A stretch of DNA of 53,310 nucleotides from a virus. Made by a program: the position numbers and the translations under genes. The notes under the pieces were generated by a model. It saw only the letters and a program-made list of their open reading frames with translations. It was not told the origin of the DNA and ran no database searches. Of this stretch, positions 1 through 45,429 are shown one piece after another. Each line of letters begins with the position of its first letter. Position 1 is the first letter of the stretch. The stretch is from positions 1-53,310 of the IMG/VR virus record IMGVR_UViG_3300021502_000001; one strand, written 5' to 3'.

Positions 1-3000
1 TCCATAAAATCTGAAAAATTTTCTTTAGTTATAGTAGTACCAAACCCAGTTCCAAGAGAACCTAAAGTATCAAGTGCTACCGTAGCTCTATCTACTTTAA
101 ATACTTTTTCTTGTGCGGCAACATACTCTTTCTCTAACAATAATATTTTCTTTGCTGAATCCCTGTAACCTTTGTCGTCTCTAACTAAGCTTTGTTGAGG
201 GGTTAAATCTTGCACCTTAGTAACACCCATATCCATATTAGCAATATCTCTATAAGTGCCTCTCATAAGTCCAGCAGTAGTTTTAACAACCTCTGCTCTA
301 CTTTTCTCAACAGCAATAGATTCTTTTAATACCCGATCTGCTTGTTCAAACTCCTTCATTAAATCTACAATAACCGCTCTAAATTGTATTACACTTTGAT
401 TATTATTTAATACAGCCAATAACTTACTTATTTCATCATAAGCGCCCTTAGCTATAGATAAACTACCGCCTTCCAATCCTTCCATAGTTTTCTTTTCATA
501 GCTACTTATAGTAGATTTAAGATCCCCCATTGGTTTTATGTAAAACTCTTTTAATTCTTTTTGCCAATCCTTCATGAAATCTACTTTACCAAAACCACCT
601 TTTGATGTATACCCTTGTGATGATTGTAATAGGGTACTTGTTGGTACATCACTAAAAAATCTTGGTCCTAAATTAAAGTCACGTTTAAAATCTTTTTTAG
701 AAATACCTTTTATTCCCGCGGCGGCTCCTGCGGTAAAAGTATTTATTATATCTATATTATTCTCCAACTCTTCCTGTATTTGTTTTACAGGAAAAACTGA
801 ATCTACCAAATTTGAAACTTCACTGTATCTAATTTCTTTTGGTGTTAAAGTTTTAGTATCAATATATTCAATAAACCACTCATAAACACCATCAGTTGTT
901 TCTTTTAATTTTACTATTGCTTGTTTTCCTGCCATATCATATTTAAGTGCTGCTTGATCCATAAACAAAGCTACATCCCCTGATTTTATTTCTTCACCTT
1001 GTTTTCTTTTTGATATCCCAGCAGATTCTAAATTTGCTTTAGTAAATTGAGCAGTGTCACCAATACCAATTGCCGATTTTTTATTTAATCTTCTTAATAA
1101 TTCTGCGCCCATTACATCTTCAGCTGAGGGCATAACCTCTATAGTTCTTGGTCTATTATTAAATATAGCTGCTAATTCTTCTACAAATTTCGTATCGGCT
1201 CCAAATGACTCATTGGATGAATAAGAACCACCCATTACATTTCTTCTAATATTTTTAGCTAATTTAAATTGAGGCTCAATTTCCACTTTTAATTGATATG
1301 CTTTTTTTAACTCGGGGTCAGAGAATAATTTTATAATAGTATCTCTATCTAACCCACCTATAGATGCTTCTGAAGTTATATTCTTCATTACTCTTTCTAC
1401 ATCACTATAAACACTTTTAAACATATCGCGGGCCTTTTTAAGATGTGGCTGCAATTTTTTAATATCATCATCGGCCGCTGTTGATAATGGGTACTTATTC
1501 TTTATGTCATATAATTTATTCATTTTAGAAGTAAGTTCCTTTAAAACCTTAGCAGGAGAAACCTTTATTTTATCACCAAGCACCCCTCCAACTATTGGTG
1601 CAGAAGTAACTAACTCTTTAAATTCATATTTAAACTTTTCGGCCCCACCAACTTTTGTTAAGTCCTCTACATGTTTAGAAAGTACTTTAAGATTTGTACC
1701 TACCATTCCAATTGACTCTAATTTCTTCAACTCATTTATGTAAGAAGAAAAGTTTTTTGTTGAGCGTAAAACTGCGTTACCTAATTCATCATAACCAATT
1801 ATTAAATCTACATTCTTATCTGACAGTTCATTACCTATATTAATTAAATCTTTCTGTATTTTTGCGGACGATGCCAATGGAGAGGTGTAGGTACCCAACT
1901 CCATACGATGTTTTTTTGTTTTTGGATCCGACGCTTTTCCTACATCTTTTGCTCGTTTTTCTATAGCCTTATATTTACCTTGTATTTCTCCAAGCATTTG
2001 TAACTCTTCTTCATGACTTTGAAGTACAGACTTCATACTTTTCTCATAATCTTGTGAAGATAGTAACATTCTTTTATAATGCCCTACGACCGCTTTTGCT
2101 ACAGGCAATAACGCTAAAACTGTAGCGGCTAATGGAGCTATTGATTTTGACATTCCAGCAGTCGAAGTCGACCATTCAGCAACAAACGCTCTTCCAGCGT
2201 CACCCATTCCACCGCTCATAGACTCTAAAGTTTCACCTATTGCGGCTGACCCTACACCGGCAGCCATACTAGCTACAATAGTACTACGTTTAGCAAGTGT
2301 AGCGAGCCCTTTGGTACCACCTTTTAGCAGACCACTGACCTCTTTTTTACCTAACCCCTGATCTTTAGCCAAATCAAATAAACCTTTTGATTTTTTAACC
2401 GCTGACCCTCCAACAAGTCCCCCTGTTAAAAAGCTCCCAACAGATTTGAACATCCCTGCTATTTTATTCGTTACCTTAGCTGTACCACTTATACTATTTC
2501 CTAAAAACTCATTATACGTTTGCCCTAATTCTTTTACTACATACACTGCTTTCCCTAAAGAGGATTTAAAATCATCTATCCCCTTACCCATTGTTAAAGC
2601 ATTATTATTAATATCTTTTGCTGGGAATAAAGTTTTAAGTCCCATCACATCTCTACCAGAACCTTTACCAAAAATTTCAAATTTAGCCATAGAAAATTGT
2701 TTTGCTAAATTTTTACCAAAATCCCCAAGCACTGAGCTTCCTTGAGATAGTGACCCTGTAAGCTTATCTATAATACTAGCACCCTTAGCTGTATAAGTTA
2801 AAAATAAAGCTAAACTAGTTCCAGCAATTTTTAATGGTTTTGGTATAGCGGTTATAGTTTCAAATAACAACCTCATTCCTTTTAACCCAATTTTAAATAT
2901 AGGCAAAACAACTTTACCCAATGACATTTGCAGTTCAACTGCAGCTGCTTTTGTTTGTTCTAATTGTTTAGCATAGGTCTTCATTAATTCTAAATTACGA

Positions 3001-6000
3001 CGTTCTGCTGAACCTTTAGAATCCATACTATGCTGTATAGCCTGTAATGCTTCATCCCAATGATCCATCAAAACTAATACAGAATTGTATTGTCTAGTAC
3101 CACCAATAGCTTGTGATATACTCAATTTTTGTGCGTTTGTTAAATCTTTCCAAGCACTTGCTAACTCATTTAATATCTCAAAACCAGGTCTTAATTCCCC
3201 TTCATCAGTAACAACTGGTATATTAAACTCTGCTAATTTTTTTGGTCCTTTCTCTGCTGTTAATCTCCTCATTATAAAACGCATTGAAGTACCGACTTCT
3301 TTACCCGTTTGTCTGGTAGTTGAACCAATAGCAGCCACTATACCATTTAACTGGTCAAATGTAAACCCTGCGTTCTTTGCAGCTGACGCAGATTTCTTTA
3401 TGGCATCAGCTAGACCCCCTGCTGTAATAGCATGTCTAGCTTCAACCTCACTCCATGCGTCCAAGAACCTTAGGGCACCGCCGCCCTCTGATTCAAACAC
3501 TTTCATAGATGCTGTTAAAGCCTCTGTAGCGTCCCTAGCACTTAAAGTTGTAACATTTGCGGCTAACGTAGCTGTTTTAGCCCTATCTAATACTTCTGCT
3601 TGACTCAGTCCCTGTTGGGCAAACACCTTCATAGATTTTAAAACTTCATTTATATCCACACCATACTGTTTAGCAAAACTTACCGCAGTTTTTTCCATTT
3701 TAGTAAAATCAGTACTTAATGGGTTCATTACCATACGTAATTGAGCAATACTGGTTTCAATATCGGAGAGGGCACTTAATGACTGTTTTAATTTTACTAC
3801 ACCCCCATAAACTACTGTTGAGGCCGCTCCCCACATTACTACTCTTTTTACTGCTCTCCCAAAAGAAACATTCGATGCCTGCATCAACCCTATAAGGTCT
3901 TTTTGTTTTTCAGTAAACATACCGACGCTAGAACCATTATCATCTAAGGACTCTCCATACTTTTTAAAATCGGTTATAACATTCTTAAGCACCGCCCCTG
4001 TTTCTGTAAATACCTTTGTATTGTATGAAAATGTCTCACCAACCTTTGCTCCACCCTCGTCCTCGGGTCTTTTAAAGTACTCTCGCACATTCTGTACATT
4101 GGCCGTATACTTTGCTAATTGAGATGTTGGGGCTTCAAATTTTGATACGGGCATTAAGTCCATCTGCCCCCAAGATTTTTTTCCAGTAGGCTGTGTGTTA
4201 CTAAAATCAAGTTTTGAATAAGAATTTTCTAAATTTTTAAAATAACCAATTAAATCTTTAATATTTTGTTTTTGTTCAGAGGTAGCGTCCCCTGATAACT
4301 CAAAAGTCTTACCATATCTCTCTAAAGAATCTCTTAAACGAGTTATTTTAGTTGATATATTTGTAAAATCCCAAGCCTGTTGTATTTGGGGGCCCAATCT
4401 TTCAACTATCTCCGCATTAGTTATTAATTCTACTAGCCTATGATCCATATTAGTTAAATCTTCTAAAGCTTCCCTAGCTTTTACTATTGGTGCTCTAAGC
4501 GCATCGCCTGAACTTACGTCCTTTATTAAATTATCATACACTTTTATTAATTCTACATCCTCTTCTAAAGGCGACGAAGCTCTTTTCATTATCTCTTTAG
4601 ATGGCATATATACCCCTGAAGCTTCTGCTAACCCTGGGTATATAAATTTATTGTCTTCTGTATAAACATCGGTACGTTTTCCTGCCCCACGTTTAACATG
4701 CTCTTGCATTCTATTTATAGAACGTTTTAAAGTAGTAAATGCTTTAATTTCAGACCCACTATCCCCTGCTACTAACGCAGATGCCAAATCTTGTTTAGCT
4801 CTATCAGCTTGTGTCATTAAAAAATCACCTACCGCCATCTTATATAATTTCCATGCTTTTAATGTGTTGCCGCCGCTTAGTAAATCTGGGCTATTTTTAA
4901 AATAATCTAATTTACGTATGAATTCATTATAATCAGGCCCGGATGTTGATGCCTTTTTTATCTCTAAAGATACACTTTTAGGTATTTTTTCGAACACTTC
5001 ATTAAAACTCACACCTATGTCTTCTTGATATAATTTCGCTTGTTCATGAAAAGCTTTTATATTATTATAAAGAGACTCTATACCCGAACCACCTGCTATT
5101 TCGGGCGGAACCATGTACCTATCTAATTCTTCTTGATACGCAGTATTTTTTAACTTTTCCATTGCTTCAGTAATATTTTTACCTTTACTACCCATACTAC
5201 CCATATTACCTTTTAACGATTCAAATGCAGTAGTTTCTTCGGTATGTGAATCTTTACCGGATTCAACTTTACTTATACTTGATTGTAATACACCCCTTCT
5301 GCTACCAATACCTATAGTTAGCCCTTCTTTTATAGCTATAACGTTTACAGACACAACCCCACCAGACCCTGCTCCCAATGCCGGAGGCATAACCCCACCA
5401 CCCCTTGCCTCCAATGCCGGGGACTCAAAAGTACGCATGGTCGCGTATTTACTCCCAAAATTTGGTTTTGGTGGCTTAGGCATCCCTGCCTGTGCTTTTT
5501 CTACTTTACCCTCTAAATCTTCAAAGTAACTACTATTACTAGATCCAAAAAACAAAGCATCTGTTACTTTAGACCCAATTGCCCCTATAGCTGTATCTAA
5601 TCTTGCGAGTAGTTTTGCTTTTTCAACCATCTCCGCAGCTTTTTCTGCTAAATCTTCCTCTGAAACACCAGAGCTTGTTAAATGTTTTGCAAATTTACCT
5701 AAAGTAATGCTTTCAATTTTTATACCCTCCGCTGCTGGTGGGCGTACAACGCCAGCCAAAGAGGATATTTGATCAACAGTGGATTTAATATTAGATATAT
5801 TATTTTTTTCAAATACCTCCTTAAACATAGAAGGTATATCTTTACCACTTATAACCCTTTCGACCAACCCCTCTCTACTAACATCAACCTTACTTATATC
5901 AAAAGATTCTTCACTTAATTCTCTTAATAAATTTGATACCAAATTTTGATTATTAACTATATTAGCGAATGAACTTTTAATGGACTCAGTATAAGCACCA

Positions 6001-9000
6001 ATATCTTCAGATTTAATAGACTCACTTAAATTTTTAATAAAATTACTACTGGTAGAAAAAGGCCCTTCCATACCCTTACTAATTTGTGATGGTATACCTT
6101 TAGATGAACCCAAATATTTTACTTGTTCAAAATTAGTATTGGCCATGGACGTCCTCATACCGTATAAAGGGGCTTTTACTGGTACTACGGCCTCACTTAT
6201 AGATATACCAGCGTCACTTTGCGACTGTTTTTTAATTTTCTTTTCTGCCCAACCCTGTATATCAGAGAATGCCCCCTCTTTCTTACGTTTTGTAGGTGCC
6301 CAAGATTTAGCTTGTGTTACCAACCCTTTAACAGATTCGCTATAAATCTCATCCGATAGCTGGTCTAACATACCTTGAAAACCTACTTTTTCTACTAGCT
6401 CATTTATTAAACCCGATCTCCCTAATTCATCAACAGATATTTTTTCTTCTCTGCCTTTTTGTATAGACCCTAATTCAGATCTTAAAGTTTCTGTTGGTAA
6501 TCCCCCAGCTCTTCTTCTTATGGACTCTTCATTAGCAGCCGCAAAATCTTTTAGATCTCCATAATCCTTTTCTGTTGTTATTTTTTTCCATAATTCAGCT
6601 GAACCCTGCCTTCCTTGTGTTAAATTAAGAACTATCTCGCTAGCTAACGGTTTTTCTCCAGCCTTCTTAACATCCATACCTTTTTGTGCTGCAAATCTAA
6701 ATATTTCATTAAGCGCTGTATGAAATTCTTTTGCTGCGTTACCACCAAGAACTTTTAAATCAGGCCATTTTTCAGAAAAATCTTCTTTTGGTACATAATT
6801 AGAGGTATCAGAAATCATCCCACCACCGAAACCCAACATATTATCTCCGATACGTTGTACTTTATTTAAACCTTCAAAATCCAACCCCGTATTTAATTTA
6901 AATATTTGAGCTGATATAGCATCTGAAAACTTAACATTGTATAATCTATCTTTTATAGCACTTTTAACTATAAGACTTATATTCTTACCAACTGCATCTA
7001 CAGACTTTACTAAATTATCAGCATATTTACTTATATCTTCCGATGGTTTTACAGTTGTAAGTGCTTTAAAAACTTTATCTTGTGTAGATTCCCCTCTAAC
7101 AGTATCTGAAACTATGCTTTTTAATATATTTTTTAAATCAGAATCCCCTCTTCCACCAAGTATTTCTAACTGGCTGCTCGGTTTTAAATACTCTAACTGT
7201 TTAGTTAAAAATGGACTTTTAAGGAATTCAAATCCTTTTTCTGCCCCAAACTTTTTTTCAGAAGTTTTTGACATTTCAGCTATTGGATATTTTCCTGTGG
7301 ATTGTACCATAGCATCATAAGTAAAAGCGTCTCTAAACACCCCAGACGTGCTATCGGTATCGGCACTTAAAGAATCAAAATGCTTTTTTATATCTCTTCG
7401 TGCAGCTGATAAAGTAGCGGAATGTATTTCTATTTGATCGCCATCAAAATCTAATTTTTGTTGCTGTGCTATATATTTAGGAATTACACCTGATATAGCG
7501 GTATTAAGCCTATTAATTAACTCTGTTAAATTACTTATACTTTCTAAATCCCCAGTTTCATAAGCTTTTTCTCTTTTAAACTGCAAGCTTCCTTCGGTAT
7601 ATCCCCCTGTTTCTTTTGAAAACACACCTATTTTTTCTTTTATATTATTTATAGAAGTATCAAACTTATCGAAATCCATTTCTGGTATTCCAGGTACCGT
7701 TAACGTATGTTTACCTAAATCACCTTTTGTTTTTAATAGTTTTGCTTTATATGGTTGAACAGACGATACACCAGTAAATGGAAAACGAACGCTTTCTATA
7801 TAAGGAACTAACTCACTTTCTATATATTTTTTAATTTCATCACTATCTATACCTTCACTTGGTGTTGCTGTTCTTAATTCTTCAGATTGTTTTAATATAT
7901 CATACAAACTACCTTTTACTACTGACGGCTCCTTCACATCTTTTACAACACCTTCATCAACTTTATATCTTTTTTTATAAGTTACGGGGATTTTTTTTGC
8001 TGCTTCCTTTGGAATACCCATTTCATGTTGCTTAAGAACAGGTCTACCTATTTTTCTTAAATTTGAAACATTTTCTGAATGTTCTTTAAGAATTTCATCC
8101 ATTATTTTAGATTCACTTGATAAAAAACCTAAGTCTACACCGACCTTATCTACAAACCCTTTCTCTATAAAAAATAACTCTTTTGAAAAATCTTTTAATT
8201 CAGATGTTCTATCAACAGAAGCCACGGTTGCGTCTGACATATAAGCAGGTATTTTCTTTGTAAAAAATACCTCGGCAACAGATCCTTTTTTACCTAACGC
8301 TGTAGAAGCTAATTCTTTAAAATAACTTTCTTTTGCTCGATTAAGATTATTTACTTGCTTTTCAATCCCCTCACCACTAACATTTATATCTAACGATTTT
8401 AATAACTCAGCACCAGTACCCTCCCTTAAAGAACTACCTAATAGAGTACCTTCTACTTTTTGAGTATTTCTTCCTCCTTTTATAAAATCGCCCATCTTCC
8501 CTATGACATTTGTCATTGCTTTCTGTGTAGTCGTTTGGCCAAGCCTTGCTTTTTCCTTATAATCAAGCCGACTTTTATCTATACTTTCTTTCTCCACACC
8601 TTCTGGTATTACACTATACATTTTACCAAATATAGATTGTAGTTCTGCTATTCCCGCCTCTGTGTCTGGCTTTAACGCATTTTGTTTACCTGATATCCTG
8701 TTAGCTCTTCCTATCCAATTACCCACTTCATTTTTTACAGCGCCGGTTATAGCCTTATCGCTCAAAAAATTTTCCGGGTGTTCTAACGACTCTTGTAACT
8801 GTTTTGCCATATTAATAACATGACCAATTCTACGAGTTACTGGTTCTGGACTATGCTCACCAGGAAGTAATTTCTCTTTATACGTACCTCTTGCCAAAGG
8901 CCCAGGGATATAAAACTTCTTTTTTTCTATTTCTCCAGATTCACTTATTTTACCTGTAGGCAAATTAACCATAAAAGCTTTTGAGTATTTCTGTAAATCC

Positions 9001-12000
9001 ATTATGGTGTTATTTAAAGTAGATTCATCATCATCTGCTTCTATACTACTAGCTTGGAACGTGCCAGAATAATTTTCAAAAGCTTTTATATCAGAGATAT
9101 CTACAGTTTCAAGATGTTTTTCTAACTCTGTACTTAACTCCCTTGTTACGTCCCCAGCGATTTGTAAAGCTTTAAGATACTCAACGTGTTTACCAGTATC
9201 TGGCCCTGAAGAACCTTTTATCTCTTTCATCAACGAGGAATCTTTTCCAAATATTGTTGAATAGGCAGTTAAAGCCGATAGGTTTAATTTCTCACCTTTT
9301 ATCCCAGATTTTATATCCCCTTTTTTCCATTCAGGATGCTGAACAGTTTCTTTAATTATCTCTACAAATTTACCACCAACTAAACTTTTACGTTCCTTAC
9401 CAAATTCATCTATAACATTAACGTAATAACTTGATGCAGCTTCTAAATCTGCTGCCCGTCTAGCCATTTCTTCATTACCAGAACCGAACTTAACTTTTAA
9501 TACCTTATATAATTCATCTGCCGACTTGTTTCTTTCTTCAGACCCTACCGCACCTTTTAAGGAGGACGTATAACCTAAAGCACTACTATATTTACTTAAA
9601 GCACCTGCTTTTTTATCCGGGCCTAACAATTTTTTATATACTTTTGGAGATAAAGTATCTTCCATAGTAGTTAAGCCTTCCCCACCTGCAACGTTAGTCA
9701 TTACTAACTCCATTGCCTCTGTCTGTAACCCGCGCTTGGCTATACCGTGGGAAGATATTCTTACGTCTACTGGTACTTGTTCATAAAGTTCTGGTCCAAT
9801 ATCTTCTTTATATTTTGAAACTATTTTATTTATATTAGCTATACTTGCTAACTCTGTTAATCCATCCTCTAAATCCACCCCTAATTTAGATAATACTTTT
9901 TTTGCTCCACTAAATATACCCCTCTGTACTAAAATTTCTTCAGGAACAAGTACCCCCTTTGTTTTAAAAATATCTAAAATAAATTTATTTCCAGAATCAA
10001 TCAACTTTGTTTGTAATGTTTGTAATGCCTTTGGAGTCATACCTAACTCTGCAGAACTTTTTTCTAATATATCAGATAATAATTTACCTTTAGTTTTAGG
10101 CATCATAGCAACACCCAAACCTGCTTCCTTAGCTTTATCTTTTGGTAACACTTTTACACCCTTTGAACCATATGTAGCTAATATACTAGCCATATTCGGC
10201 ACGGCATTAGTAGATGGTATACTAATACCTTTAGACCCGTAACGTGTTGTTATTTTTCTTCCAAAATAATCCATAAATTTTTCTGCTAATTTAGCTGATT
10301 GAACTTCCACACTTTCACCACGTAATGTAACCATGGTCTTCTTTACCTCTGTTATAAAAGCCTCACTGGCCCTTCCTTCATACTGCTCTGTAACACCTAA
10401 AACCTCTTGAATTTTGTTAGCTGCCTCTTTTATTAAATCACCAGTTTTAATATCTGATACAGAACTATTCATAACATCTTCTTCTAAAGTACTACTTAAC
10501 TTTCCACCAACGCTAGGGCGTATAAGTATCTTAGTAACCTCAGTTAAAGCTTTTGCTAACTTACCAGAAATAAGTATTTGGTCTTCAAAGGTAGAAGAAA
10601 CATTTCTTAATTCAGCTATAACATTTAAACCATAGCCTTTAGTTCCCACCTGACCTGAGTCCCTAAATTCTCTCTCAGTTTTGGTTCTTAATTTTGGAAA
10701 TTGCCCTTCTTTGCCGGCAATACCAAAAGCATTAGTTACGTTTGTAATATTTCTACCTACTTGTTGAAATTGTTTTCCAAATGGAGATTGTTCAGTTAAA
10801 TTCCCAGAGTACATTTTCAACATAGTAGTATTTAATGTATCAATCGCTCGGCCTGTATCTGTTTTACCTCTGTATTCATCAATTTTACTAGCTGTTGACT
10901 CCGGCAAACCCAAAGAGGATACTTGACCACCAGTAGGTAACTCTTTTCTTCGTTCATACACGGTACCAGTTTGTTTAGTAATTTTATCTAGCAGTGCCGC
11001 TTCATCATACAGATCTTTTAACGCTAGATTCAAGCCTATAATTAAATTTTTTGATTCTTGGGGATCTAACCTATCTTTAGCGTCATAAATTGGAGAGGTT
11101 CTAGTAGACAAATTAACTACATCCTGTTGATAAGCTCCTCTACGAGGTGTACCAGGGTCTAATGGCAATAACCCTTCAACCTGAGCAATTGCCTGCTCAT
11201 ACTTTCGTATTGATTGTGTATACACAGGTTTTTTAGACAAAACAGCAATAGGTGATTTACTTTTGCCTTCTAATAGTACTTTCCTATACATGTCATAAAT
11301 ATTTTCAAAATCTATTTTGTTCAATGATTTTACAACATCATACGCCGATACACCTGCCTTATTTAAAACATCTACAAAAACATCAACAGAATTATTTCCT
11401 TCTGAAGACAACTTCTTAATTGTATCGTCGATATGTTTAGTAAACTTCTCAACATCCATTACACCAGAACGTTGAACTTCCGTACCTCTCATTACTGCGG
11501 CTTGTTTATATTGTTTAACTATAAATTGTTTACCACTTGTACCACCACCAACATCCTCTATTTTTGACACATCTTTTATTAAATTTTTGGCTACATCTTT
11601 AGCCTCATTTAATACTTCTCCTATCGGATTTGGGCTTATATTTTTTATACTCTTAACATAGTCTTCTCTACGACTAACTGGTATCTTAGCACTTTCTATT
11701 TTTTTATATAAATTTTCAAATCCACTTTCAAACGTTGCAAATTTAGCTACAGATTTACTACTACCATGTAAAGTCTCTGATACTGCTGTCCCTTTTTCTG
11801 TCAATTTTACAGCGGGTAAAGTAACAGTACGCATCAACTCATCAACATACATACTACGTTTTGCTTCTATTCTTGCAAATGTTTGTTTAAATAAATTTAC
11901 TAATTCATATTCGCTAGACACGGACTCTGATACTATCTTATCTAAATTAACATCTGGTAGAGCCACCCCTTTTTTTATATCAGATAAAGTGGTAACTACT

Positions 12001-14345
12001 TTTGAAATATCAGCCACTCCTATGTAGAGATCTTTAAGTCCTTCGATTTGCGATATAGACATTCCTCTTAGCGCGGAAATAATTTTAGAGGGCATATCAC
12101 CGACATTAGTCTTTGAAGTTATATCGTCTATTTTCTTAGACGTATACGATTCTACTAATTCTGACGTAGTTCCTTCTTGTCCACCTAATTTACGTTTCAA
12201 TTGTTTTACATCTGCTATATCAAATCCCCATTGTCTGCCACCTTCTCCACCTATAAGTTTAAATATCTCTCTTGGATCTATAACACCCGCTTTTTTATTT
12301 ATTTGCCAATTACCTTTATTCTTTCCCTCATTAAATCCTGATTCTAATCCTTTTATTATATCAGACTGTAAAGCAAATAATGATTTAGATAAAGCATTTA
12401 CATTCGTTTGTATAGTGTCTTGTAACTCTTTACCATATTTTCCAGAATTATAAATATCAGGAAGTTTCTGCCCTTCAGGACTCCCCATTACATTTAACTT
12501 AGGGTACTCTACAGGTAATTTTTTATAAGTTTTATAGCTTTTTTTGACTTCTAAAATACGACTTTCAACTGCTGAGGCTAAACTATTAGTACCCTTTGCT
12601 ACAGCCTCGAATCCTTTATCTATTGGTTCGGCATCAGATACTTCTTTAGTTTTATTGTCAACTGCGGAAGCCAACCCCTCTATCTTACCAGCCAACTGTC
12701 TAAATTTAGTATCTATTTCTTTTTCTGAGCCAAGACCTTGTAAAGAAGAACTAACCATCGCATGAGCTTCTTTGGCCTGTGACACTGGTCCTCTTACAGG
12801 AGGTATATTAAGTTTTTGTAACTTTTCTAAATTTATACCTATACCTTTTATTGAGCTTTTTTGTAAAGCTTTATCCAACTCGCCTATTACATCCTCAATA
12901 TTAGTTTTTAAATCTACAGCTATATCAAATGATTTGGACTCTTTAAATGCGGATTCGATAGCTGCTGTAGTTTGTGTCTGTAACTCTTTAACAAACATAG
13001 CTACTTCTTTATCTATAAACCCACCTTTGGTAGGTTTTAATTCTACAGGGATCGTTATACCTTTTTTCTCTAAATCAGATAAGGTCTTTTTAATTTCTTT
13101 ATCATCTAAAACGACTTTTACAGTTTGTAATATCTTTTCTGTTTTAGTTGTAAACTTTTGTACTATAGAGTCTAACTTTTTCCATTGTGCAGAACCAGTA
13201 CCCTCACCTATGCTTTTTGGCAGTTCAGCCATAGATTTATTTAAAACAGAAACCATACTTACTAATTCTTTAATCTCTTGTGGGGATGTAGATTTACTAG
13301 ATACAGCACGTTTTAATTCTGTAGTTAACTCTTTCAACCCCTTTTCAAAATCAGGTATCTTTTCCAAAGATTTTATTAGGTTAACCATTGTTTTTGTTAA
13401 AGGTGTTGTACCTTCCACACCTTTAGCCTTCATAGTTTTAGATAAATCTAGTAAAAACTTCTTAAATAGTTGAGAGGGGTCGTCCCGAACAGTCTTATGT
13501 GCTAAGGAAACCTTAGAAGTGATGCGTGATTTTACGCCCGACAATGTTGATTTTAGTTCACTAGCTATTTCTGCTTGACTACTCGCCAGTTTAGTTGCTT
13601 CTACCGTAGCGGATTTAATTTCTTTTGCTATTTGTGGTAATAGTTTACCAATTTGTATAAAAGCTTTTATAATCGAAAAGAAGTCCGCTCCAGATTGTGA
13701 AGACCCAGTTCCTGGTTTACTTATTTTTTTTATTTCTCCAAGAGCTTTAACTACTTCTTTAGATAACGTACCTATTGTAGAAGACATCTTAGATAGTTCT
13801 TTTACTACGGTAAGGGTGTCTCTAGGGATTGCTTTTTTTACAGCGTTTGATATGGCAATTTCTAATCCGTGAGTGTCAACATCAACACCTTGTTTTCTTA
13901 ATGAGGATTCTATTTTTGCAATACTTTTTGCAATAGTACTATCCATAGTTGTTAAAGCTTTAACAACTATATCCGCATCTGATCTTCCTGTAACTTTCCC
14001 CCCGGACATTAAAGTCTTTTTTAACTGTGATACCAAATTATTTATTAATTCCGAAGTTGCGACTTTAATTAAAGAAGACATCTCTGATTTAGACATCCCT
14101 TTTGAACCTGCAACTGTAGACCCGCCTTTACTTGATACAACCTTTACTAAGGCCTTAGTGATCTCAGATTGCATATCGCTTGCCATTTTATTTGTCGATT
14201 TGTCTAAAACAGCAGATAATTTATTGATTGATTTGGGGGATATTTCTACATTAGATTTACCGCTTGTTCCTGTAGATTTTATTTTGGACACAGCACCTGT
14301 TGCACTGTCTGTTTGGGATATTATACGAATAGTCTTGTCTGCCAA
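1..14345 (-). CDS. Giant tail tape-measure protein (3' end beyond window)
   Basis: The frame is open from 14360 to the left edge, giving at least 4,781 codons. The tape measure sets tail length, is packed in the tail tube and is ejected with DNA. A TP901-type core is visible at about residues 3540-3810, with segments such as GFTFDQLNGIVAAIGSTTRQ, TSMRFIMRRL and 'SQAIGGTRQYNSVL'. Hydrophobic stretches follow near 3830 (TSLALFLTY) and 4075 (LAATVLALLPVAKAVV). The 3,500 residues before the core are mostly charged, helix-prone and rich in K, S, E and L. I prefer a TTG start at 14345, because the in-frame ATG at 14360 lies inside a GGAGG that sits 8 nt before the TTG. It lies 32 nt after the second chaperone-like gene, the usual position for a tape measure. 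Family assignment is firm; the full length is unknown. Confidence 0.93.
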   Translation of the reverse strand, partial: MADKTIRIISQTDSATGAVSKIKSTGTSGKSNVEISPKSINKLSAVLDKSTNKMASDMQSEITKALVKVVSSKGGSTVAGSKGMSKSEMSSLIKVATSELINNLVSQLKKTLMSGGKVTGRSDADIVVKALTTMDSTIAKSIAKIESSLRKQGVDVDTHGLEIAISNAVKKAIPRDTLTVVKELSKMSSTIGTLSKEVVKALGEIKKISKPGTGSSQSGADFFSIIKAFIQIGKLLPQIAKEIKSATVEATKLASSQAEIASELKSTLSGVKSRITSKVSLAHKTVRDDPSQLFKKFLLDLSKTMKAKGVEGTTPLTKTMVNLIKSLEKIPDFEKGLKELTTELKRAVSSKSTSPQEIKELVSMVSVLNKSMAELPKSIGEGTGSAQWKKLDSIVQKFTTKTEKILQTVKVVLDDKEIKKTLSDLEKKGITIPVELKPTKGGFIDKEVAMFVKELQTQTTAAIESAFKESKSFDIAVDLKTNIEDVIGELDKALQKSSIKGIGINLEKLQKLNIPPVRGPVSQAKEAHAMVSSSLQGLGSEKEIDTKFRQLAGKIEGLASAVDNKTKEVSDAEPIDKGFEAVAKGTNSLASAVESRILEVKKSYKTYKKLPVEYPKLNVMGSPEGQKLPDIYNSGKYGKELQDTIQTNVNALSKSLFALQSDIIKGLESGFNEGKNKGNWQINKKAGVIDPREIFKLIGGEGGRQWGFDIADVKQLKRKLGGQEGTTSELVESYTSKKIDDITSKTNVGDMPSKIISALRGMSISQIEGLKDLYIGVADISKVVTTLSDIKKGVALPDVNLDKIVSESVSSEYELVNLFKQTFARIEAKRSMYVDELMRTVTLPAVKLTEKGTAVSETLHGSSKSVAKFATFESGFENLYKKIESAKIPVSRREDYVKSIKNISPNPIGEVLNEAKDVAKNLIKDVSKIEDVGGGTSGKQFIVKQYKQAAVMRGTEVQRSGVMDVEKFTKHIDDTIKKLSSEGNNSVDVFVDVLNKAGVSAYDVVKSLNKIDFENIYDMYRKVLLEGKSKSPIAVLSKKPVYTQSIRKYEQAIAQVEGLLPLDPGTPRRGAYQQDVVNLSTRTSPIYDAKDRLDPQESKNLIIGLNLALKDLYDEAALLDKITKQTGTVYERRKELPTGGQVSSLGLPESTASKIDEYRGKTDTGRAIDTLNTTMLKMYSGNLTEQSPFGKQFQQVGRNITNVTNAFGIAGKEGQFPKLRTKTEREFRDSGQVGTKGYGLNVIAELRNVSSTFEDQILISGKLAKALTEVTKILIRPSVGGKLSSTLEEDVMNSSVSDIKTGDLIKEAANKIQEVLGVTEQYEGRASEAFITEVKKTMVTLRGESVEVQSAKLAEKFMDYFGRKITTRYGSKGISIPSTNAVPNMASILATYGSKGVKVLPKDKAKEAGLGVAMMPKTKGKLLSDILEKSSAELGMTPKALQTLQTKLIDSGNKFILDIFKTKGVLVPEEILVQRGIFSGAKKVLSKLGVDLEDGLTELASIANINKIVSKYKEDIGPELYEQVPVDVRISSHGIAKRGLQTEAMELVMTNVAGGEGLTTMEDTLSPKVYKKLLGPDKKAGALSKYSSALGYTSSLKGAVGSEERNKSADELYKVLKVKFGSGNEEMARRAADLEAASSYYVNVIDEFGKERKSLVGGKFVEIIKETVQHPEWKKGDIKSGIKGEKLNLSALTAYSTIFGKDSSLMKEIKGSSGPDTGKHVEYLKALQIAGDVTRELSTELEKHLETVDISDIKAFENYSGTFQASSIEADDDESTLNNTIMDLQKYSKAFMVNLPTGKISESGEIEKKKFYIPGPLARGTYKEKLLPGEHSPEPVTRRIGHVINMAKQLQESLEHPENFLSDKAITGAVKNEVGNWIGRANRISGKQNALKPDTEAGIAELQSIFGKMYSVIPEGVEKESIDKSRLDYKEKARLGQTTTQKAMTNVIGKMGDFIKGGRNTQKVEGTLLGSSLREGTGAELLKSLDINVSGEGIEKQVNNLNRAKESYFKELASTALGKKGSVAEVFFTKKIPAYMSDATVASVDRTSELKDFSKELFFIEKGFVDKVGVDLGFLSSESKIMDEILKEHSENVSNLRKIGRPVLKQHEMGIPKEAAKKIPVTYKKRYKVDEGVVKDVKEPSVVKGSLYDILKQSEELRTATPSEGIDSDEIKKYIESELVPYIESVRFPFTGVSSVQPYKAKLLKTKGDLGKHTLTVPGIPEMDFDKFDTSINNIKEKIGVFSKETGGYTEGSLQFKREKAYETGDLESISNLTELINRLNTAISGVIPKYIAQQQKLDFDGDQIEIHSATLSAARRDIKKHFDSLSADTDSTSGVFRDAFTYDAMVQSTGKYPIAEMSKTSEKKFGAEKGFEFLKSPFLTKQLEYLKPSSQLEILGGRGDSDLKNILKSIVSDTVRGESTQDKVFKALTTVKPSEDISKYADNLVKSVDAVGKNISLIVKSAIKDRLYNVKFSDAISAQIFKLNTGLDFEGLNKVQRIGDNMLGFGGGMISDTSNYVPKEDFSEKWPDLKVLGGNAAKEFHTALNEIFRFAAQKGMDVKKAGEKPLASEIVLNLTQGRQGSAELWKKITTEKDYGDLKDFAAANEESIRRRAGGLPTETLRSELGSIQKGREEKISVDELGRSGLINELVEKVGFQGMLDQLSDEIYSESVKGLVTQAKSWAPTKRKKEGAFSDIQGWAEKKIKKQSQSDAGISISEAVVPVKAPLYGMRTSMANTNFEQVKYLGSSKGIPSQISKGMEGPFSTSSNFIKNLSESIKSEDIGAYTESIKSSFANIVNNQNLVSNLLRELSEESFDISKVDVSREGLVERVISGKDIPSMFKEVFEKNNISNIKSTVDQISSLAGVVRPPAAEGIKIESITLGKFAKHLTSSGVSEEDLAEKAAEMVEKAKLLARLDTAIGAIGSKVTDALFFGSSNSSYFEDLEGKVEKAQAGMPKPPKPNFGSKYATMRTFESPALEARGGGVMPPALGAGSGGVVSVNVIAIKEGLTIGIGSRRGVLQSSISKVESGKDSHTEETTAFESLKGNMGSMGSKGKNITEAMEKLKNTAYQEELDRYMVPPEIAGGSGIESLYNNIKAFHEQAKLYQEDIGVSFNEVFEKIPKSVSLEIKKASTSGPDYNEFIRKLDYFKNSPDLLSGGNTLKAWKLYKMAVGDFLMTQADRAKQDLASALVAGDSGSEIKAFTTLKRSINRMQEHVKRGAGKRTDVYTEDNKFIYPGLAEASGVYMPSKEIMKRASSPLEEDVELIKVYDNLIKDVSSGDALRAPIVKAREALEDLTNMDHRLVELITNAEIVERLGPQIQQAWDFTNISTKITRLRDSLERYGKTFELSGDATSEQKQNIKDLIGYFKNLENSYSKLDFSNTQPTGKKSWGQMDLMPVSKFEAPTSQLAKYTANVQNVREYFKRPEDEGGAKVGETFSYNTKVFTETGAVLKNVITDFKKYGESLDDNGSSVGMFTEKQKDLIGLMQASNVSFGRAVKRVVMWGAASTVVYGGVVKLKQSLSALSDIETSIAQLRMVMNPLSTDFTKMEKTAVSFAKQYGVDINEVLKSMKVFAQQGLSQAEVLDRAKTATLAANVTTLSARDATEALTASMKVFESEGGGALRFLDAWSEVEARHAITAGGLADAIKKSASAAKNAGFTFDQLNGIVAAIGSTTRQTGKEVGTSMRFIMRRLTAEKGPKKLAEFNIPVVTDEGELRPGFEILNELASAWKDLTNAQKLSISQAIGGTRQYNSVLVLMDHWDEALQAIQHSMDSKGSAERRNLELMKTYAKQLEQTKAAAVELQMSLGKVVLPIFKIGLKGMRLLFETITAIPKPLKIAGTSLALFLTYTAKGASIIDKLTGSLSQGSSVLGDFGKNLAKQFSMAKFEIFGKGSGRDVMGLKTLFPAKDINNNALTMGKGIDDFKSSLGKAVYVVKELGQTYNEFLGNSISGTAKVTNKIAGMFKSVGSFLTGGLVGGSAVKKSKGLFDLAKDQGLGKKEVSGLLKGGTKGLATLAKRSTIVASMAAGVGSAAIGETLESMSGGMGDAGRAFVAEWSTSTAGMSKSIAPLAATVLALLPVAKAVVGHYKRMLLSSQDYEKSMKSVLQSHEEELQMLGEIQGKYKAIEKRAKDVGKASDPKTKKHRMELGTYTSPLASSAKIQKDLINIGNELSDKNVDLIIGYDELGNAVLRSTKNFSSYINELKKLESIGMVGTNLKVLSKHVEDLTKVGGAEKFKYEFKELVTSAPIVGGVLGDKIKVSPAKVLKELTSKMNKLYDIKNKYPLSTAADDDIKKLQPHLKKARDMFKSVYSDVERVMKNITSEASIGGLDRDTIIKLFSDPELKKAYQLKVEIEPQFKLAKNIRRNVMGGSYSSNESFGADTKFVEELAAIFNNRPRTIEVMPSAEDVMGAELLRRLNKKSAIGIGDTAQFTKANLESAGISKRKQGEEIKSGDVALFMDQAALKYDMAGKQAIVKLKETTDGVYEWFIEYIDTKTLTPKEIRYSEVSNLVDSVFPVKQIQEELENNIDIINTFTAGAAAGIKGISKKDFKRDFNLGPRFFSDVPTSTLLQSSQGYTSKGGFGKVDFMKDWQKELKEFYIKPMGDLKSTISSYEKKTMEGLEGGSLSIAKGAYDEISKLLAVLNNNQSVIQFRAVIVDLMKEFEQADRVLKESIAVEKSRAEVVKTTAGLMRGTYRDIANMDMGVTKVQDLTPQQSLVRDDKGYRDSAKKILLLEKEYVAAQEKVFKVDRATVALDTLGSLGTGFGTTITKENFSDFM

Positions 14346-14358: not shown

Positions 14359-14377
14359 ATTAATATTGTTAAAAAAT

Positions 14378-20415: not shown

Positions 20416-21282
20416 TTAATAAACATAATGGTATCTTTTATTTAAAATAGATCTATACCAAGCTTTGTGCCAATTACGATCTGTATTAGCTCTAGAATTG
20501 CAAGATCTGCAGACAGTAACTAAATTTTCAGCCCCGCAAGCTTTTTTATTGTAATCTATATGGTGCACCGTAAGAACCCCATCTTCTCCCCAACAATCTG
20601 GATTTATGCATTTGTAACCATCACGTCCTTTAACAAAATCTTTGAGCTCTTTGTTCCAATCTTGACAATAAGGTTCTTTTGAAATACCGCCTTCCCAATT
20701 TGGATTATTTTTGCCATGTCTCATTTTAGACATATCTTCATAAAAACAATATGGGCACCGTCTATTACTTATCCAATTTCTCCAACTAATATTATGGTTA
20801 TGACCTCTATTACAAACGTATTCTAACTTCTGTCTATTATTAACATATCTTTTAGTCAAAAGAATATAATCTTCTTTTTTAAATTCCGCGCAAATAAAAT
20901 CTATTGTAGGTTGTTTATTATTTGAAAAACAAATACACCTTTGTCCTTGTCTCCAACCAAACCAACTTATACTTCGTTTACACCCTTTTGGACAAATGTA
21001 ATCTAATTTTTGATGTGCCCCTATATATTCTTTAGTTAAAAGTTTATAATTTTCTTTTTCAAATTTCGAATGAATAAATTCTATTGTTTTCTTTGCTTTC
21101 TTAGAAAAACAAGGGCATCTTTGTCCTCTATCCCAACAATTCCAAGTGATACTATGCCTGTGTCCTTTAGGACAAATATATTCTAACTTTTGTTTATTAT
21201 TAATATATCCATTGCTCAATAAAGTATAACCCTCTGTTTCAAAACTTTCTCTAATAAATTCAATTGTTGGTTTTTTTCCCAT
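20416..21282 (-). CDS. HNH homing endonuclease with three zinc-ribbon-like repeats (288 aa)
   Basis: Three repeats of about 60 aa (residues 5-62, 65-122, 125-180) share the pattern F-x8-Y-x-LL-x3-Y-x5-KL-x-Y-x-CP-x-G, then W and RCPxC. A linker NPNW-x-GGISKEPYCQDW follows, then an HNH nuclease: C225/C230, HH at 240-241, N253, C258 and C261. Such free-standing enzymes cut a cognate site and spread by gene conversion. The gene is wedged between two structural genes with 2 nt upstream and only a weak SD (TTGGA). Its C-terminal third closely resembles those at 27293 and 44569, so the three are recent paralogues. Confidence 0.9.
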   Translation of the reverse strand: MGKKPTIEFIRESFETEGYTLLSNGYINNKQKLEYICPKGHRHSITWNCWDRGQRCPCFSKKAKKTIEFIHSKFEKENYKLLTKEYIGAHQKLDYICPKGCKRSISWFGWRQGQRCICFSNNKQPTIDFICAEFKKEDYILLTKRYVNNRQKLEYVCNRGHNHNISWRNWISNRRCPYCFYEDMSKMRHGKNNPNWEGGISKEPYCQDWNKELKDFVKGRDGYKCINPDCWGEDGVLTVHHIDYNKKACGAENLVTVCRSCNSRANTDRNWHKAWYRSILNKRYHYVY

Positions 21283-26052: not shown

Positions 26053-26610
26053 TTAATTATTTTTTTTCGTTTCCCAAACTGTTTTAAATTCTTTACAATT
26101 TAAAAATTCATCTGGTAATGTAATACCTTTACCATCTACATTAACTACATAACCGTAACAACGATCAACAAATTCTGTGCAATAAAAATTTTTATTGTTT
26201 GAAGCAAAATCATAGTCATATTCACATGTATTTTCTTTATATAATTTAAGTGCTATTTCTATTGCTTTACTACTTTTTTCTTCATTTTCATTACGTAAAA
26301 CAATTGCGTCATCACACCTTAAAAATACTAAAATATCCTCTTTTGTTAACCCTTTACCAATCATATGTAAAACATAATTATCACCTACATATATTCCTGC
26401 ATGTGACCAATAACCTTGTATTAATATACTACCTAAATAATGATCATAACGTCTTAAAAGAACATCACCAGGTTGAATAATATCTAATACCTCTCTTGTT
26501 TCTTTACCTTTAATATCATAATGGGAATCACCAAAAAAGATAATCCCACCCTTGTATAAACGAATATTAGAAAACCATCGTAAAAACCATTTTTTAAAAT
26601 TATACCACAT
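26053..26610 (-). CDS. Permuted NlpC/P60 (YiiX-like) papain-fold hydrolase (185 aa)
   Basis: The block PGDVLLRR (47-54) then SHAGIYVGD (69-77), giving H70, and a C-terminal 'NFYCTEFVDRCYG' giving C144 with E146, is the circularly permuted NlpC/P60 arrangement in which His precedes the catalytic Cys. Such enzymes hydrolyse amide or lipid-acyl bonds; the substrate cannot be read from sequence. The N-terminus (1-27) is aromatic and basic (MWYNFKKWFLRWF) and may touch membranes. The gene lies 16 nt after a metallophosphoesterase gene inside the fibre cluster, so both may act on the envelope. It could alternatively be a cell-wall hydrolase used at entry or lysis. Confidence 0.7.
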   Translation of the reverse strand: MWYNFKKWFLRWFSNIRLYKGGIIFFGDSHYDIKGKETREVLDIIQPGDVLLRRYDHYLGSILIQGYWSHAGIYVGDNYVLHMIGKGLTKEDILVFLRCDDAIVLRNENEEKSSKAIEIALKLYKENTCEYDYDFASNNKNFYCTEFVDRCYGYVVNVDGKGITLPDEFLNCKEFKTVWETKKNN

Positions 26611-27292: not shown

Positions 27293-27979
27293 TCATCCTC
27301 CATAAATATATCCATATCTTTTATGTAAAATTGCTTTATACCAAGCCTCATACCAATTACGATCTGTATTTGCTCTAGTATTACAAGACCTGCAAACTGT
27401 GATAAGATTTTCGGCAGCGCAAGATTTTTTATTGTAATTAATATGATGCACAGTCAAATCTTTAGAATTATTTAATAAACAATCAGGATTTATACACTTA
27501 TATCCGTCTCGTTCTTTAATAAAATCTTTCAAATCATTTGTCCAATCTTGACAATAAGGTTCTTTTGAAATACCACCTTTCCAATTAGGATGTCTACAAC
27601 CTCTATTATCTATTATCCAACATGTTGGACATCTATATCCTTGTTTCCAATTATCCCAAGTCATAGAATGTTTATGACCTTCAGGACAAATATAATCTAA
27701 TTTCTGATAGGAATTCATATATACTTCAGTTAAAAACTCATAATCATATTTTTCAAAAGATTTTCTAACAAATTCTATTGTTAATTTTGGTGTTCCAAAA
27801 CAATAAAAACATCTTCTTCTGCCAGCCTTCCAATTATTCCAATTTATCGAATGTCTATGTCCTTTAGGACAAATATAATCTAACTTTTGTTTATTATTTA
27901 TATACACCTTTGTTAAAAGAATATATCCTTCTTTAAAAAACTCACCTCTAATAAATTCTATAGTTAATTTTTTACTAAT
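27293..27979 (-). CDS. HNH homing endonuclease with two zinc-ribbon-like repeats, unusual start
   Basis: Two repeats of about 60 aa (the second ends in YRCPTC) precede a HPNWKGGISKEPYCQDW linker and an HNH nuclease (VHHINYNKKSC, VCRSCNTRAN). Homology to its two paralogues continues upstream of the first conventional start (GTG at 27907) for 24 codons to an ATT at 27979, where the relatives have ATG (SKKLTIEFI here, SKRLTYEFV in the relative). A TAG lies just further upstream, and the ATT overlaps the stop of the preceding gene. Either ATT is used, or translation begins at the internal GTG and loses about half of repeat 1. No strong SD is visible for ATT. Confidence 0.8.
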   Translation of the reverse strand: MSKKLTIEFIRGEFFKEGYILLTKVYINNKQKLDYICPKGHRHSINWNNWKAGRRRCFYCFGTPKLTIEFVRKSFEKYDYEFLTEVYMNSYQKLDYICPEGHKHSMTWDNWKQGYRCPTCWIIDNRGCRHPNWKGGISKEPYCQDWTNDLKDFIKERDGYKCINPDCLLNNSKDLTVHHINYNKKSCAAENLITVCRSCNTRANTDRNWYEAWYKAILHKRYGYIYGG

Positions 27980-37899: not shown

Positions 37900-37980
37900 T
37901 ACTACTTTGAAGAGAAACGCTACTTTTAGAAAATAATTGGTACTGCTTTTGGAAAATAATTAATACTACTTCGATAAGAA
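37900..37980. repeat. Degenerate tandem repeat of about 21 bp
   Basis: Four units begin with TACT: at 37900, 37921, 37941 and 37964. The central two are closest (TTTTRGAAAATAATTRR). The array overlaps the last codons of the homing endonuclease gene and fills the gap before the promoter-like element. Confidence 0.5.
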
Positions 37981-38892
37981 ATTATTTATTTTCTGTGCAC
38001 ACCTTTTGGATGGCCATTCTTTGTCTGTTATTCTTAATAAGTTAATGGAGTTTTTATTACATAATTTAGTTTTTATTTTATCTCTTTGCATTGTTTCTTT
38101 TCTACTATGCCAATATACACCATCGCATTCTATAGCTTTGTTTAATTCTGGAAAATATAAATCCAATTCTAAAAATTTATTAGTATTATTATTAAATATT
38201 ATGGTTCTATCGTTATAAACAACCCTACCATTATAAATACTTTTAACGAACTTTTTAACTTCTAATTCAAATTTTGATGTGTAATTATTCATAATATAAC
38301 AAGTAAAACATCTTGCAGCTCCATCTTTAAAATTATGAAAACTAGTTTCCCAATAATGACCCATTGGGCATTTAAGTTTTATTTTAGATCTATTATTAAC
38401 ATAAGTTGTAGAAAGTAACTCATAATCATAATTTTTAACATACCCTCTAACAAATTCTATTGTATGCTTATTAATTTTTCCACTTACATATTTCTTTGCA
38501 TCTGGGTACTTATCTCTATAATCACTTGCATGTTTTAACAAACACTTTTCTCTGTTATTTTTATAATATTTTCGACCTTTTTCAGTCAATTCCTCTCTTG
38601 ATCTTCTTTCATGGACCATCTTATTTTTTCTTTTAACTCTTTCAATTTTACAACTATTAGAACCACAATAAACTTTTTTACTATAAAAGGTAAAAAACTC
38701 TTTGCCGCACGCTAAACATTCTCTCTGATATTCTTTACTATTATTCCTTTTTCTGCTTTGTTTCCTCCACTGTATTCTTTCTCTATCTCTTTTAGCTTTT
38801 TCTTTACATTCTGAACAATATTTTTGACTCCCAGAAGTGGGAATAAAAATATTTTTGCAGCCCTTCATTTGACATTCTTTCTCTTTATACAT
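37966..38892 (-). CDS. Homing endonuclease with zinc fingers and Vsr/EDxHD-type nuclease (308 aa)
   Basis: Two N-terminal Cys4 fingers (C7/C12/C26/C29 and C59/C62/C76/C81) are followed by a basic linker, one copy of the zinc-ribbon-like repeat (about 143-198, ending RCFTC), then a nuclease domain with E209, LELDLYFPE (E242, D244), IECDGVYWH (E255, D257, H262) and D271, matching the EDxHD/Vsr-like PD-(D/E)XK homing enzymes. The SD is absent or weak. It is transcribed right after another homing endonuclease, 15 nt away, beyond the capsid terminator. Confidence 0.8.
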   Translation of the reverse strand: MYKEKECQMKGCKNIFIPTSGSQKYCSECKEKAKRDRERIQWRKQSRKRNNSKEYQRECLACGKEFFTFYSKKVYCGSNSCKIERVKRKNKMVHERRSREELTEKGRKYYKNNREKCLLKHASDYRDKYPDAKKYVSGKINKHTIEFVRGYVKNYDYELLSTTYVNNRSKIKLKCPMGHYWETSFHNFKDGAARCFTCYIMNNYTSKFELEVKKFVKSIYNGRVVYNDRTIIFNNNTNKFLELDLYFPELNKAIECDGVYWHSRKETMQRDKIKTKLCNKNSINLLRITDKEWPSKRCAQKINNFLSK

Positions 38893-44225: not shown

Positions 44226-44567
44226 TTAATATTTTTCTTTCTTTTGAAACCCATTCTCTATCATAACATCAGCAAACCAGTTTCCATTAGGTAGAACAAT
44301 AGAAGCTAAATAACGGCCATATATACCAGGTACTGGTTCTGTAATTATTGTAACTTGCTTATTTAACAACAATTCTTTAGCAAATTCAGAAGCCTTTTTA
44401 CCATGTAATTTTTCTGCTTCACTTTTTGGCCTATAAACTTCTGGGGTGTCTAAATCTTTAATTCTAAATTTACTGGTGAATTTCAATTTAAACCCTAAAT
44501 CAAGTTCTGCTTCTATGGTGTCCCCGTCTATTATGCGTTTTATTATTGCGTTATAAGTATATAACAT
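44226..44567 (-). CDS. Staphylococcal-nuclease-like protein (113 aa)
   Basis: SNase fold with the catalytic set visible in order: D16, R35 in 'FRIKDLDTPEV', E43 in the same block, and R85 in GRYLAS, close to the classical R35/E43/R87 geometry. It probably cleaves DNA or RNA using calcium. No signal peptide is seen, so it acts in the host cytoplasm or virion. The start at 44567 has GAAGG 8 nt upstream; an ATG five codons earlier overlaps that SD. The SD lies in the last codons of the HNH gene, 1 nt of spacing separates stop and start, so translation is coupled to it. Confidence 0.8.
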   Translation of the reverse strand: MLYTYNAIIKRIIDGDTIEAELDLGFKLKFTSKFRIKDLDTPEVYRPKSEAEKLHGKKASEFAKELLLNKQVTIITEPVPGIYGRYLASIVLPNGNWFADVMIENGFQKKEKY

Positions 44568-44568
44568 T

Positions 44569-45429
44569 TTAATTACCTTCATTATAAAAATAACTGTATC
44601 TTTTATTTAAAATTGCTTTGTACCAAGCCTTGTGCCATTCTCGATCTGTATTTGCTCTAGAATTGCAGGATCTACAAACCGTGATAAGATTTTCTGGTAC
44701 GCAGGATTTTTTGTTATAATCTATGTGGTGAACAGACAATGTTTTATCTTTATCCCAACAATCGGGGTTTAAACATCTATGACCATCCCGTTCTTTAACA
44801 AACCCTTTCAGATCTTTCCCCCAGTCTTGACAATAAGGTTCTTTTGAGATACCGCCTTTCCAACGCGGGTGCCTTTTTTTACACTCTATACAAAAACATC
44901 TTGTACCTAATTGCCATGCATGCCAATCTGTAGCATGTATATTACCGTTTGGACAAATATACCGCAATTTAGTTTCAGCATTTATATACTCAGTGCTTAA
45001 AAGAATATACCCCTCTGAAAAAAATATACCCTTAAGTTGTTCTATAGTAACTTTTATCCTTAAATCACATAAATTACAAATACATCTGTGACCCTGTTGC
45101 CAATCATTCCATCTAATACAACCAATTTTTCCATTTGGACAAAGGTAATCAAGTTTTTGTTTATTGTTTATATACTCTTTAGTCAACAAGGTATAACCTT
45201 CTTTTTCAAACTCTAATTTAATAAATCCAATAGTTTTTTTAAATTTTCCAGAACAACAAGGGCATCTGTCCCCACTTCCCCAACATCCCCATGTAACACT
45301 GTGTTTGGTTCCACATGGACAAATATATTCTAATTTTTGTGAATTATTTATATACTCCGTACTCAATAAGGTATAACCCTCTTTCTCAAAACCTTTTTTA
45401 ACAAACTCATATGTTAATCTTTTACTCAT
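44569..45429 (-). CDS. HNH homing endonuclease with three zinc-ribbon-like repeats (286 aa)
   Basis: Repeats at about 5-60, 65-121 and 127-183 each have a Y-x-LLS/T-x-EYIN, KLxY-x-CP and a C-terminal C-x-C element. The linker HPRWKGGISKEPYCQDW (187-203) leads to an HNH core: C219/C224, HH 234-235, N247, C252 and C255. The gene is inserted between portal and SNase-like genes, with only 3 nt after the portal stop. The second repeat has lost one of the usual motif residues (KIGCIRW for HxHSxxW). Closest relatives here are at 20416 and 27293. Confidence 0.9.
   Translation of the reverse strand: MSKRLTYEFVKKGFEKEGYTLLSTEYINNSQKLEYICPCGTKHSVTWGCWGSGDRCPCCSGKFKKTIGFIKLEFEKEGYTLLTKEYINNKQKLDYLCPNGKIGCIRWNDWQQGHRCICNLCDLRIKVTIEQLKGIFFSEGYILLSTEYINAETKLRYICPNGNIHATDWHAWQLGTRCFCIECKKRHPRWKGGISKEPYCQDWGKDLKGFVKERDGHRCLNPDCWDKDKTLSVHHIDYNKKSCVPENLITVCRSCNSRANTDREWHKAWYKAILNKRYSYFYNEGN

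Follow-up and report, generated by a model that had tools for sequence, protein, structure and literature searches.

The giant tape-measure gene and its neighbors

The window analyzed here, i.e., the whole of a 53,310-base IMG/VR virus record that is classed as linear, carries at its edge a giant tape-measure gene on the minus strand (Table 1) whose reading frame continues without a stop codon from position 14360 to the end of the contig. Counted from the ATG at 14360, the frame comprises 4,786 codons, but the TTG at 14345 with 4,781 visible codons is the likelier start because the sequence GGAGGTG lies directly 5' of it (start region: ATGGAGGTGCAACTTTTGGCAGAC). An initial annotation had already placed the start at 14345 and described 4,781 codons open up to the window edge, and it was right on both counts. 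Residues are numbered throughout from the ATG at 14360, and numbering from the TTG is obtained by subtracting five. Because the end of the record cuts the gene, its stop codon is out of view. Chance does not account for an open frame of 4,781 codons. Two related contigs contain unbroken frames of 7,646 and 7,933 aa to which it is collinear, and the window protein can be aligned over its length to roughly the first 5,200 residues of both of these whole homologs, so that the full length of the window gene should be ca. 7,200-7,500 aa.

A recognizable TP901 core had been taken as the mark of a true tape measure, and this holds in profile searches: NCBIfam TIGR01760 (tape_meas_TP901) matches the window protein with E 2.8e-42 and 145 bits against a cut-off of 28.8 bits, Pfam PF10145 matches residues 3557-3754 with E 3e-25, and several PHROG tape-measure families match as well. 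By the curated cut-off, the protein is thus a member of the TP901-type tape measures. Plain Pfam, PHROG, and PDB sequence searches with the window protein returned this core and no other match.

The two syntenic genes of 337 and 509 aa listed in Table 1 gave no family match. The position of the former directly upstream of the tape measure suggests a tail assembly chaperone, and the latter is, by position only, a probable tail tube protein. Elsewhere in the window, the gene for the terminase large subunit (1,371 aa; 49040-53155 (-)) is split by two inteins that have both splicing and LAGLIDADG parts. Several putative endonuclease-like proteins (20416-21282, 27293-27907, 44569-45429, 37966-38892 (-)) have in common modules of ca. 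40 residues (QKLDYICPKGH...), and three of them end in an HNH-like part; their genes resemble mobile homing elements that have inserted between structural genes. A gene for a Staphylococcal-nuclease-like protein (44226-44582 (-)) lies inside the head gene cluster, and one for a permuted papain-like amidase (Peptidase_C92; 26053-26610 (-)) is found among the tail genes.

Table 1. Features of the tape-measure locus (residues numbered from the ATG at 14360).
Feature	Position	Strand	Evidence
Giant tape-measure gene with TTG start, truncated at the 3' end by the contig edge	3..14345	-	4,781 codons visible; homologs of 7,646 and 7,933 aa
N-terminal part, weakly conserved, residues 6-850	11811..14345	-	Conservation profile of 12 family members
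RNA polymerase block (predicted), residues 950-2750	6111..11513	-	Conserved in 34 distinct tape measures; PF00623; profile alignment with stand-alone phage RNA polymerases
Barrel B catalytic motif GRKITTRYGSKGIS, residues 1367-1380	10221..10262	-	R1368, K1369, R1373, G1375, K1377, G1378 invariant in 34/34; aligned to THGNKGV of stand-alone RNA polymerase
Barrel B end VPVDVRISSHGIAKRGLQTE, residues 1529-1548	9717..9776	-	Like beta PVDIVLNPLGVPSRMNIGQ; R1543 and G1544 invariant; aligned to KIDVIVSAKSVKRRKNYGQ
Barrel A entry element GRPVLKQHEMGIPKEAAKKIPV, residues 2105-2126	7983..8048	-	Like beta' PYLRLHQCGLPKKMALELF; hhalign against E. coli rpoC 359-380, weak alone
Barrel A RxP element PYIESVRFPFTGVSSVQPYKAKLLK, residues 2186-2210	7731..7805	-	R2192 and P2194 invariant in 34/34; stand-alone counterpart RFPCLGFMGIRPQ, weak alone
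Metal-binding motif LDFDGDQIEIH, residues 2303-2313	7422..7454	-	D2304, D2306, D2308 invariant; F/Y at 2305; aligned to E. coli rpoC 460-479
Invariant-rich stretch NE..R...QKG.DVKKAG, residues 2551-2568	6657..6710	-	Invariant columns
TP901 / PhageMin_Tail tape-measure core, residues 3557-3754	3099..3692	-	Pfam, PHROG, and NCBIfam matches
Gene directly upstream of tape measure, 337 aa	14378..15391	-	Synteny with 334- and 338-aa genes next to relatives' tape measures
Gene of 509 aa	16453..17982	-	Synteny with 530- and 488-aa genes

A conserved block with RNA polymerase signatures

Relatives were detected in ca. 45 contigs by IMG/VR scans that started from the window protein and continued with alignments; where a contig includes the gene wholly or for the most part, the open frame is mostly 7,224-8,654 residues long. 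Neither 84,980 bacterial and archaeal genomes, searched with the patterns used, nor 50,697 phage records contained relatives of this family. Conservation peaks at residues 1000-1900 and 2000-2700, i.e., in a block of ca. 1,800 visible residues in the front half of the protein, and again at 3500-3850 in the tape-measure core. This front block is covered by 34 distinct members including the window, the 33 relatives being 30-42% identical over 1,801 columns. Just 73 of these columns are invariant across all 34 tape measures, and they include R1368, K1369, R1373, G1375, K1377, G1378, R1543, R2192, P2194, D2304, D2306, G2307, and D2308.

These residues spell out signatures of two-barrel RNA polymerases. 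The invariant lysines K1369 and K1377 in barrel B, which align to the stand-alone RNA polymerases described below, are eight residues apart like K1065 and K1073 of the E. coli beta subunit in GDKMAGRHGNKG, and the catalytic-lysine stretch of the beta subunit, GDKMAGRHGNKGVIS, has the same lysine spacing as GRKITTRYGSKGIS. In barrel A, the stretch VRFPFTGVSSVQPY (residues 2191-2204) resembles the RxP element, and LDFDGDQIEIH resembles the active-site motif of the beta' subunit (E. coli NADFDGDQMAVH) with the three aspartates of DxDGD invariant in 34/34 members. The signatures RKxxxRxGxKG (at 1368), RxP (2192), and D[FY]DGD (2304) follow each other in the order of single-chain two-barrel polymerases. 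The conserved stretch at 2551-2568 may, tentatively, be the bridge-helix or trigger-loop region. Polymerase block and tape measure share one open frame in the window and in ca. 30 distinct contigs.

Pfam RNA_pol_Rpb1_2 (PF00623) matches 19 of the 34 members (best 5e-4, below the curated cut-off), and the next Pfam family at most three. With the window protein alone, Pfam and family searches reported no polymerase family, so that the case for a polymerase rests on the family. Searches of the PDB with profiles returned coiled-coil noise together with sub-threshold matches to RPB1 and the RNA polymerase gamma subunit at DFDGD. As a calibration, gp96 of phage P23-45, a proven polymerase, gives no Pfam polymerase match either.

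Stand-alone proteins provide the bridge to known enzymes. A second, separate frame with both signatures is present in two related contigs that are among the longest, one of 238 kb (frame of 1,178 aa) and one of 228 kb (ca. 1,088 aa). This second polymerase was found in these two relatives but not in the window, a fragment of 53 kb. The 1,178-aa protein matches rpoB with E 7e-8 and exceeds the curated cut-off of PF00562 in a search of the contig, the ca. 1,088-aa protein exceeds that of PF00623, and judging from their sequences both are RNA polymerases. The tape-measure profile aligns with them collinearly at window residues ca. 1215-1379, 1526-1855, and 2301-2329 (scores 52, 62, and 38), i.e., from before barrel B to DFDGD. 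A first tape-measure profile reached a score of 74 against the stand-alone polymerases, and 40 column-shuffled decoys scored 24 at most. Even a plain translated search links the block to these proteins (E 3.9e-4). The stand-alone proteins in turn match both E. coli rpoB and the gp96 polymerase of P23-45 with a profile score of 50 each. Directly compared, the window family and gp96 gave an hhalign probability of at most 1%, and their link is therefore the indirect one via the stand-alone polymerase (score 50).

An AlphaFold2 model of moderate confidence for residues 1195-2394, built from 34 sequences (pLDDT 72.8, pTM 0.51), points the same way. Of the 50 PDB chains that match it best, nearly all belong to the RNA polymerase largest subunit of bacterial, plastid, archaeal, or eukaryotic origin, and many RNA polymerase subunits are also among its matches in a viral structure library. 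The best PDB match has E 0.05 and probability 0.97. No match attains E 0.001 by itself, and the TM-scores are low as well, for which long insertions in the model may be the cause; we therefore take the fold matches as support but not as proof. With 12 sequences, the model had been unusable (pLDDT 52), and its fold matches carried no information.

Several relatives show peculiarities of their own. Two very distant tape measures (L126 and L127) have NLDFDGD ahead of the tape-measure core and match the family in profile comparisons, which shows the depth of the tape-fused polymerase family. In IMGVR_UViG_3300009702_000031, the tape-measure frame is broken three times (at 6702, 7719, and 15294), every stop is TAG, and the frame goes on in register past two of the three, which suggests that TAG may encode an amino acid here. 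In another contig (that of L026; L045, positions 921-926), the tape measure is composed of two open frames of ca. 4,530 and ca. 4,028 aa that overlap at a TAATG junction.

Probable function of the tape-measure gene and tail length

On this evidence, the gene very probably encodes a tape measure with a built-in single-chain two-barrel enzyme, a predicted virion RNA polymerase. The protein would begin with ca. 850-950 N-terminal residues, followed by the polymerase (ca. 950-2750), the tape-measure core (ca. 3500-3900), and a long C-terminal part that is lost from the contig; in two relatives (G001 and G002), this last part contains an HExxH zinc-peptidase-like motif at residues 6597 and 6894, respectively.

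In phage P23-45, the tape-fused polymerase gp96 is experimentally proven and present in virions; it transcribes pre-early genes including that of a second polymerase and is proposed to act during DNA entry (PMC10770324). The same mechanism is most likely at work in the window family because the arrangement is the same, including the second polymerase in two relatives. The tape measure would be put together inside the tail tube, where it would set tail length, and at infection it would be ejected before the DNA or along with it, helping to make the entry channel. The predicted polymerase part could then transcribe the first-entering phage genes without host RNA polymerase, and one of these may encode the second, stand-alone RNA polymerase of the largest relatives, as in P23-45. 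With an apparently complete polymerase catalytic core in its tape measure, the virus thus probably injects its own transcription enzyme together with its DNA. Upstream (5') of genes in the two largest relatives, no shared promoter-like motif was clear over shuffled background except for host-like TTGACA/TATTAT.

A sub-variant of this reading, to which we give a minor but real chance, is that the polymerase is active but proteolytically released from the tape measure, either as virions assemble or at ejection, to act as a free enzyme. Processing is known for tape measures of other phages, and the HExxH motif further along the chain in two relatives would fit such a step. The window family itself offers no sign of cleavage, and the polymerase of P23-45 stays in full-sized gp96 in virions (PMC10770324).

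Two other readings are far less probable. The protein might be nothing but a tape measure, with DFDGD and its neighbors coincidental and all of its length a ruler for a tail of at least 0.7 µm. The tape-measure core is indeed certain, and the window protein alone has no Pfam polymerase match, but a mere ruler would hardly have catalytic residues that are invariant in 34 tape measures, a collinear match to stand-alone polymerases far over decoys, PF00623 in 19/34 members, and polymerases among its fold matches. It is similarly improbable that the block is a decayed polymerase kept as a structural plug or DNA-binding element without RNA synthesis. Its divergence from all known families and the large insertions between motifs would suit such decay, but the few residues that stay invariant at 30-42% identity include exactly the catalytic ones, which decay would not keep. 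That misassembly of a metagenomic contig brought together the genes for an RNA polymerase and a tape measure is a negligible prospect and was rejected together with chance, since the same order in one frame recurs in many distinct, independent contigs including the whole 7,646- and 7,933-aa genes.

If the gene is indeed a tape measure with a built-in polymerase, tail length is less easily read from it. The initial annotation had predicted a tail of at least 717 nm from 0.15 nm per residue. Its premise of a true tape measure stands and a long tail is plausible, but the bound is not supported as stated because it treats every residue as stretched ruler, though ca. 1,800 of the visible ones, overlooked as such by that annotation, are polymerase to which this value is not simply applicable. 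Over the visible 4,781 residues, 0.15 nm per residue yields 717 nm with all residues counted and ca. 0.43-0.46 µm without the polymerase block; adding the missing 3' part (ca. 2,400-2,700 residues, by homology) brings this to ca. 1.1 µm with and ca. 0.8 µm without the block. Excluding the block from the ruler is not established either, because the tail of P74-26 is longer than 0.15 × 5,002 nm. At almost 1 µm, it is the longest tail known (PMC10034513), and in the close relative P23-45 the tape measure, RNA polymerase included, has 5,002 aa (PMC10770324), so a tape-fused polymerase is compatible with an extreme tail. A tail sheath gene was not found in 18 related contigs, which makes a very long non-contractile tail plausible and consistent with siphoviruses, and tails near 1 µm are plausible for this group. 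More generally, estimates of tail length from protein length may fail where an enzyme is built into the tape measure.

Comparison with known tape-fused and single-chain polymerases

Tape-fused RNA polymerases have until now been described for one genus of Thermus phages, i.e., a few hot-spring viruses that include P23-45 and its relatives P74-26, G20c, TSP4, and stolb1-3 (PMC10770324), and among 50,697 phage records we found gp96-like polymerases in this genus only. The window family is most likely a sequence-distant, widespread branch of such virion enzymes. It adds no fewer than 34 distinct uncultured lineages, of which some are represented by contigs of more than 200 kb, to those with this arrangement, and offers sequence intermediates through which tape-fused enzymes can be connected with stand-alone polymerases of phages and with those of cells. 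With this family, one can test if early transcription proceeds in step with DNA entry, how the tail lets a polymerase pass, and which part of a tape measure sets length. Somewhat short of an even chance, in our judgment, is the wider proposal that the fusion arose here separately from that of P23-45, in a large group of uncultured phages with very long tails, and that tail-delivered transcription is a general strategy; whole proteins of 7,200-8,650 residues would then rank with the largest known tape measures and predict tails beyond the present record.

Like gp96 of P23-45, the window protein has a two-barrel polymerase with DFDGD in the same chain and ahead of the tape-measure body, and the P23-45 genome likewise holds a second, stand-alone polymerase as seen in two window relatives. 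Unlike gp96, to which it shows no direct sequence similarity although the relatives' stand-alone polymerase does match it, the window block starts after ca. 900 rather than ca. 330 residues, has a barrel connector of several hundred residues in place of the short one (613-679) of gp96, whose type is a flat enzyme lacking a clamp, and keeps a beta-like KxxxRxGxKG motif. The tape measures of the window family are also longer (7,200-8,650 aa compared to 5,002 aa) and belong to uncultured phages with contigs of up to 238 kb. The window block is larger than the compact one of P23-45, which speaks against an enzyme that would have to pass through the tail.

Compared to TP901-type tape measures (TIGR01760, PF10145), the core domain is alike and far over the cut-off, but it sits 3,500 residues from the N terminus, behind the polymerase. 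Single-chain phage polymerases such as YonO of SPbeta (PMC5467207) and gp66 of the crAss-like phage phi14:2 have two barrels per polypeptide (PMC10770324), an organization that the window protein shares. These two are not known to be fused to a TP901 tape measure. With the cellular beta and beta' subunits, finally, it shares the GxKG lysine motif, RxP, and DFDGDQ as well as their order, whereas both of its barrels lie in one chain with large insertions.
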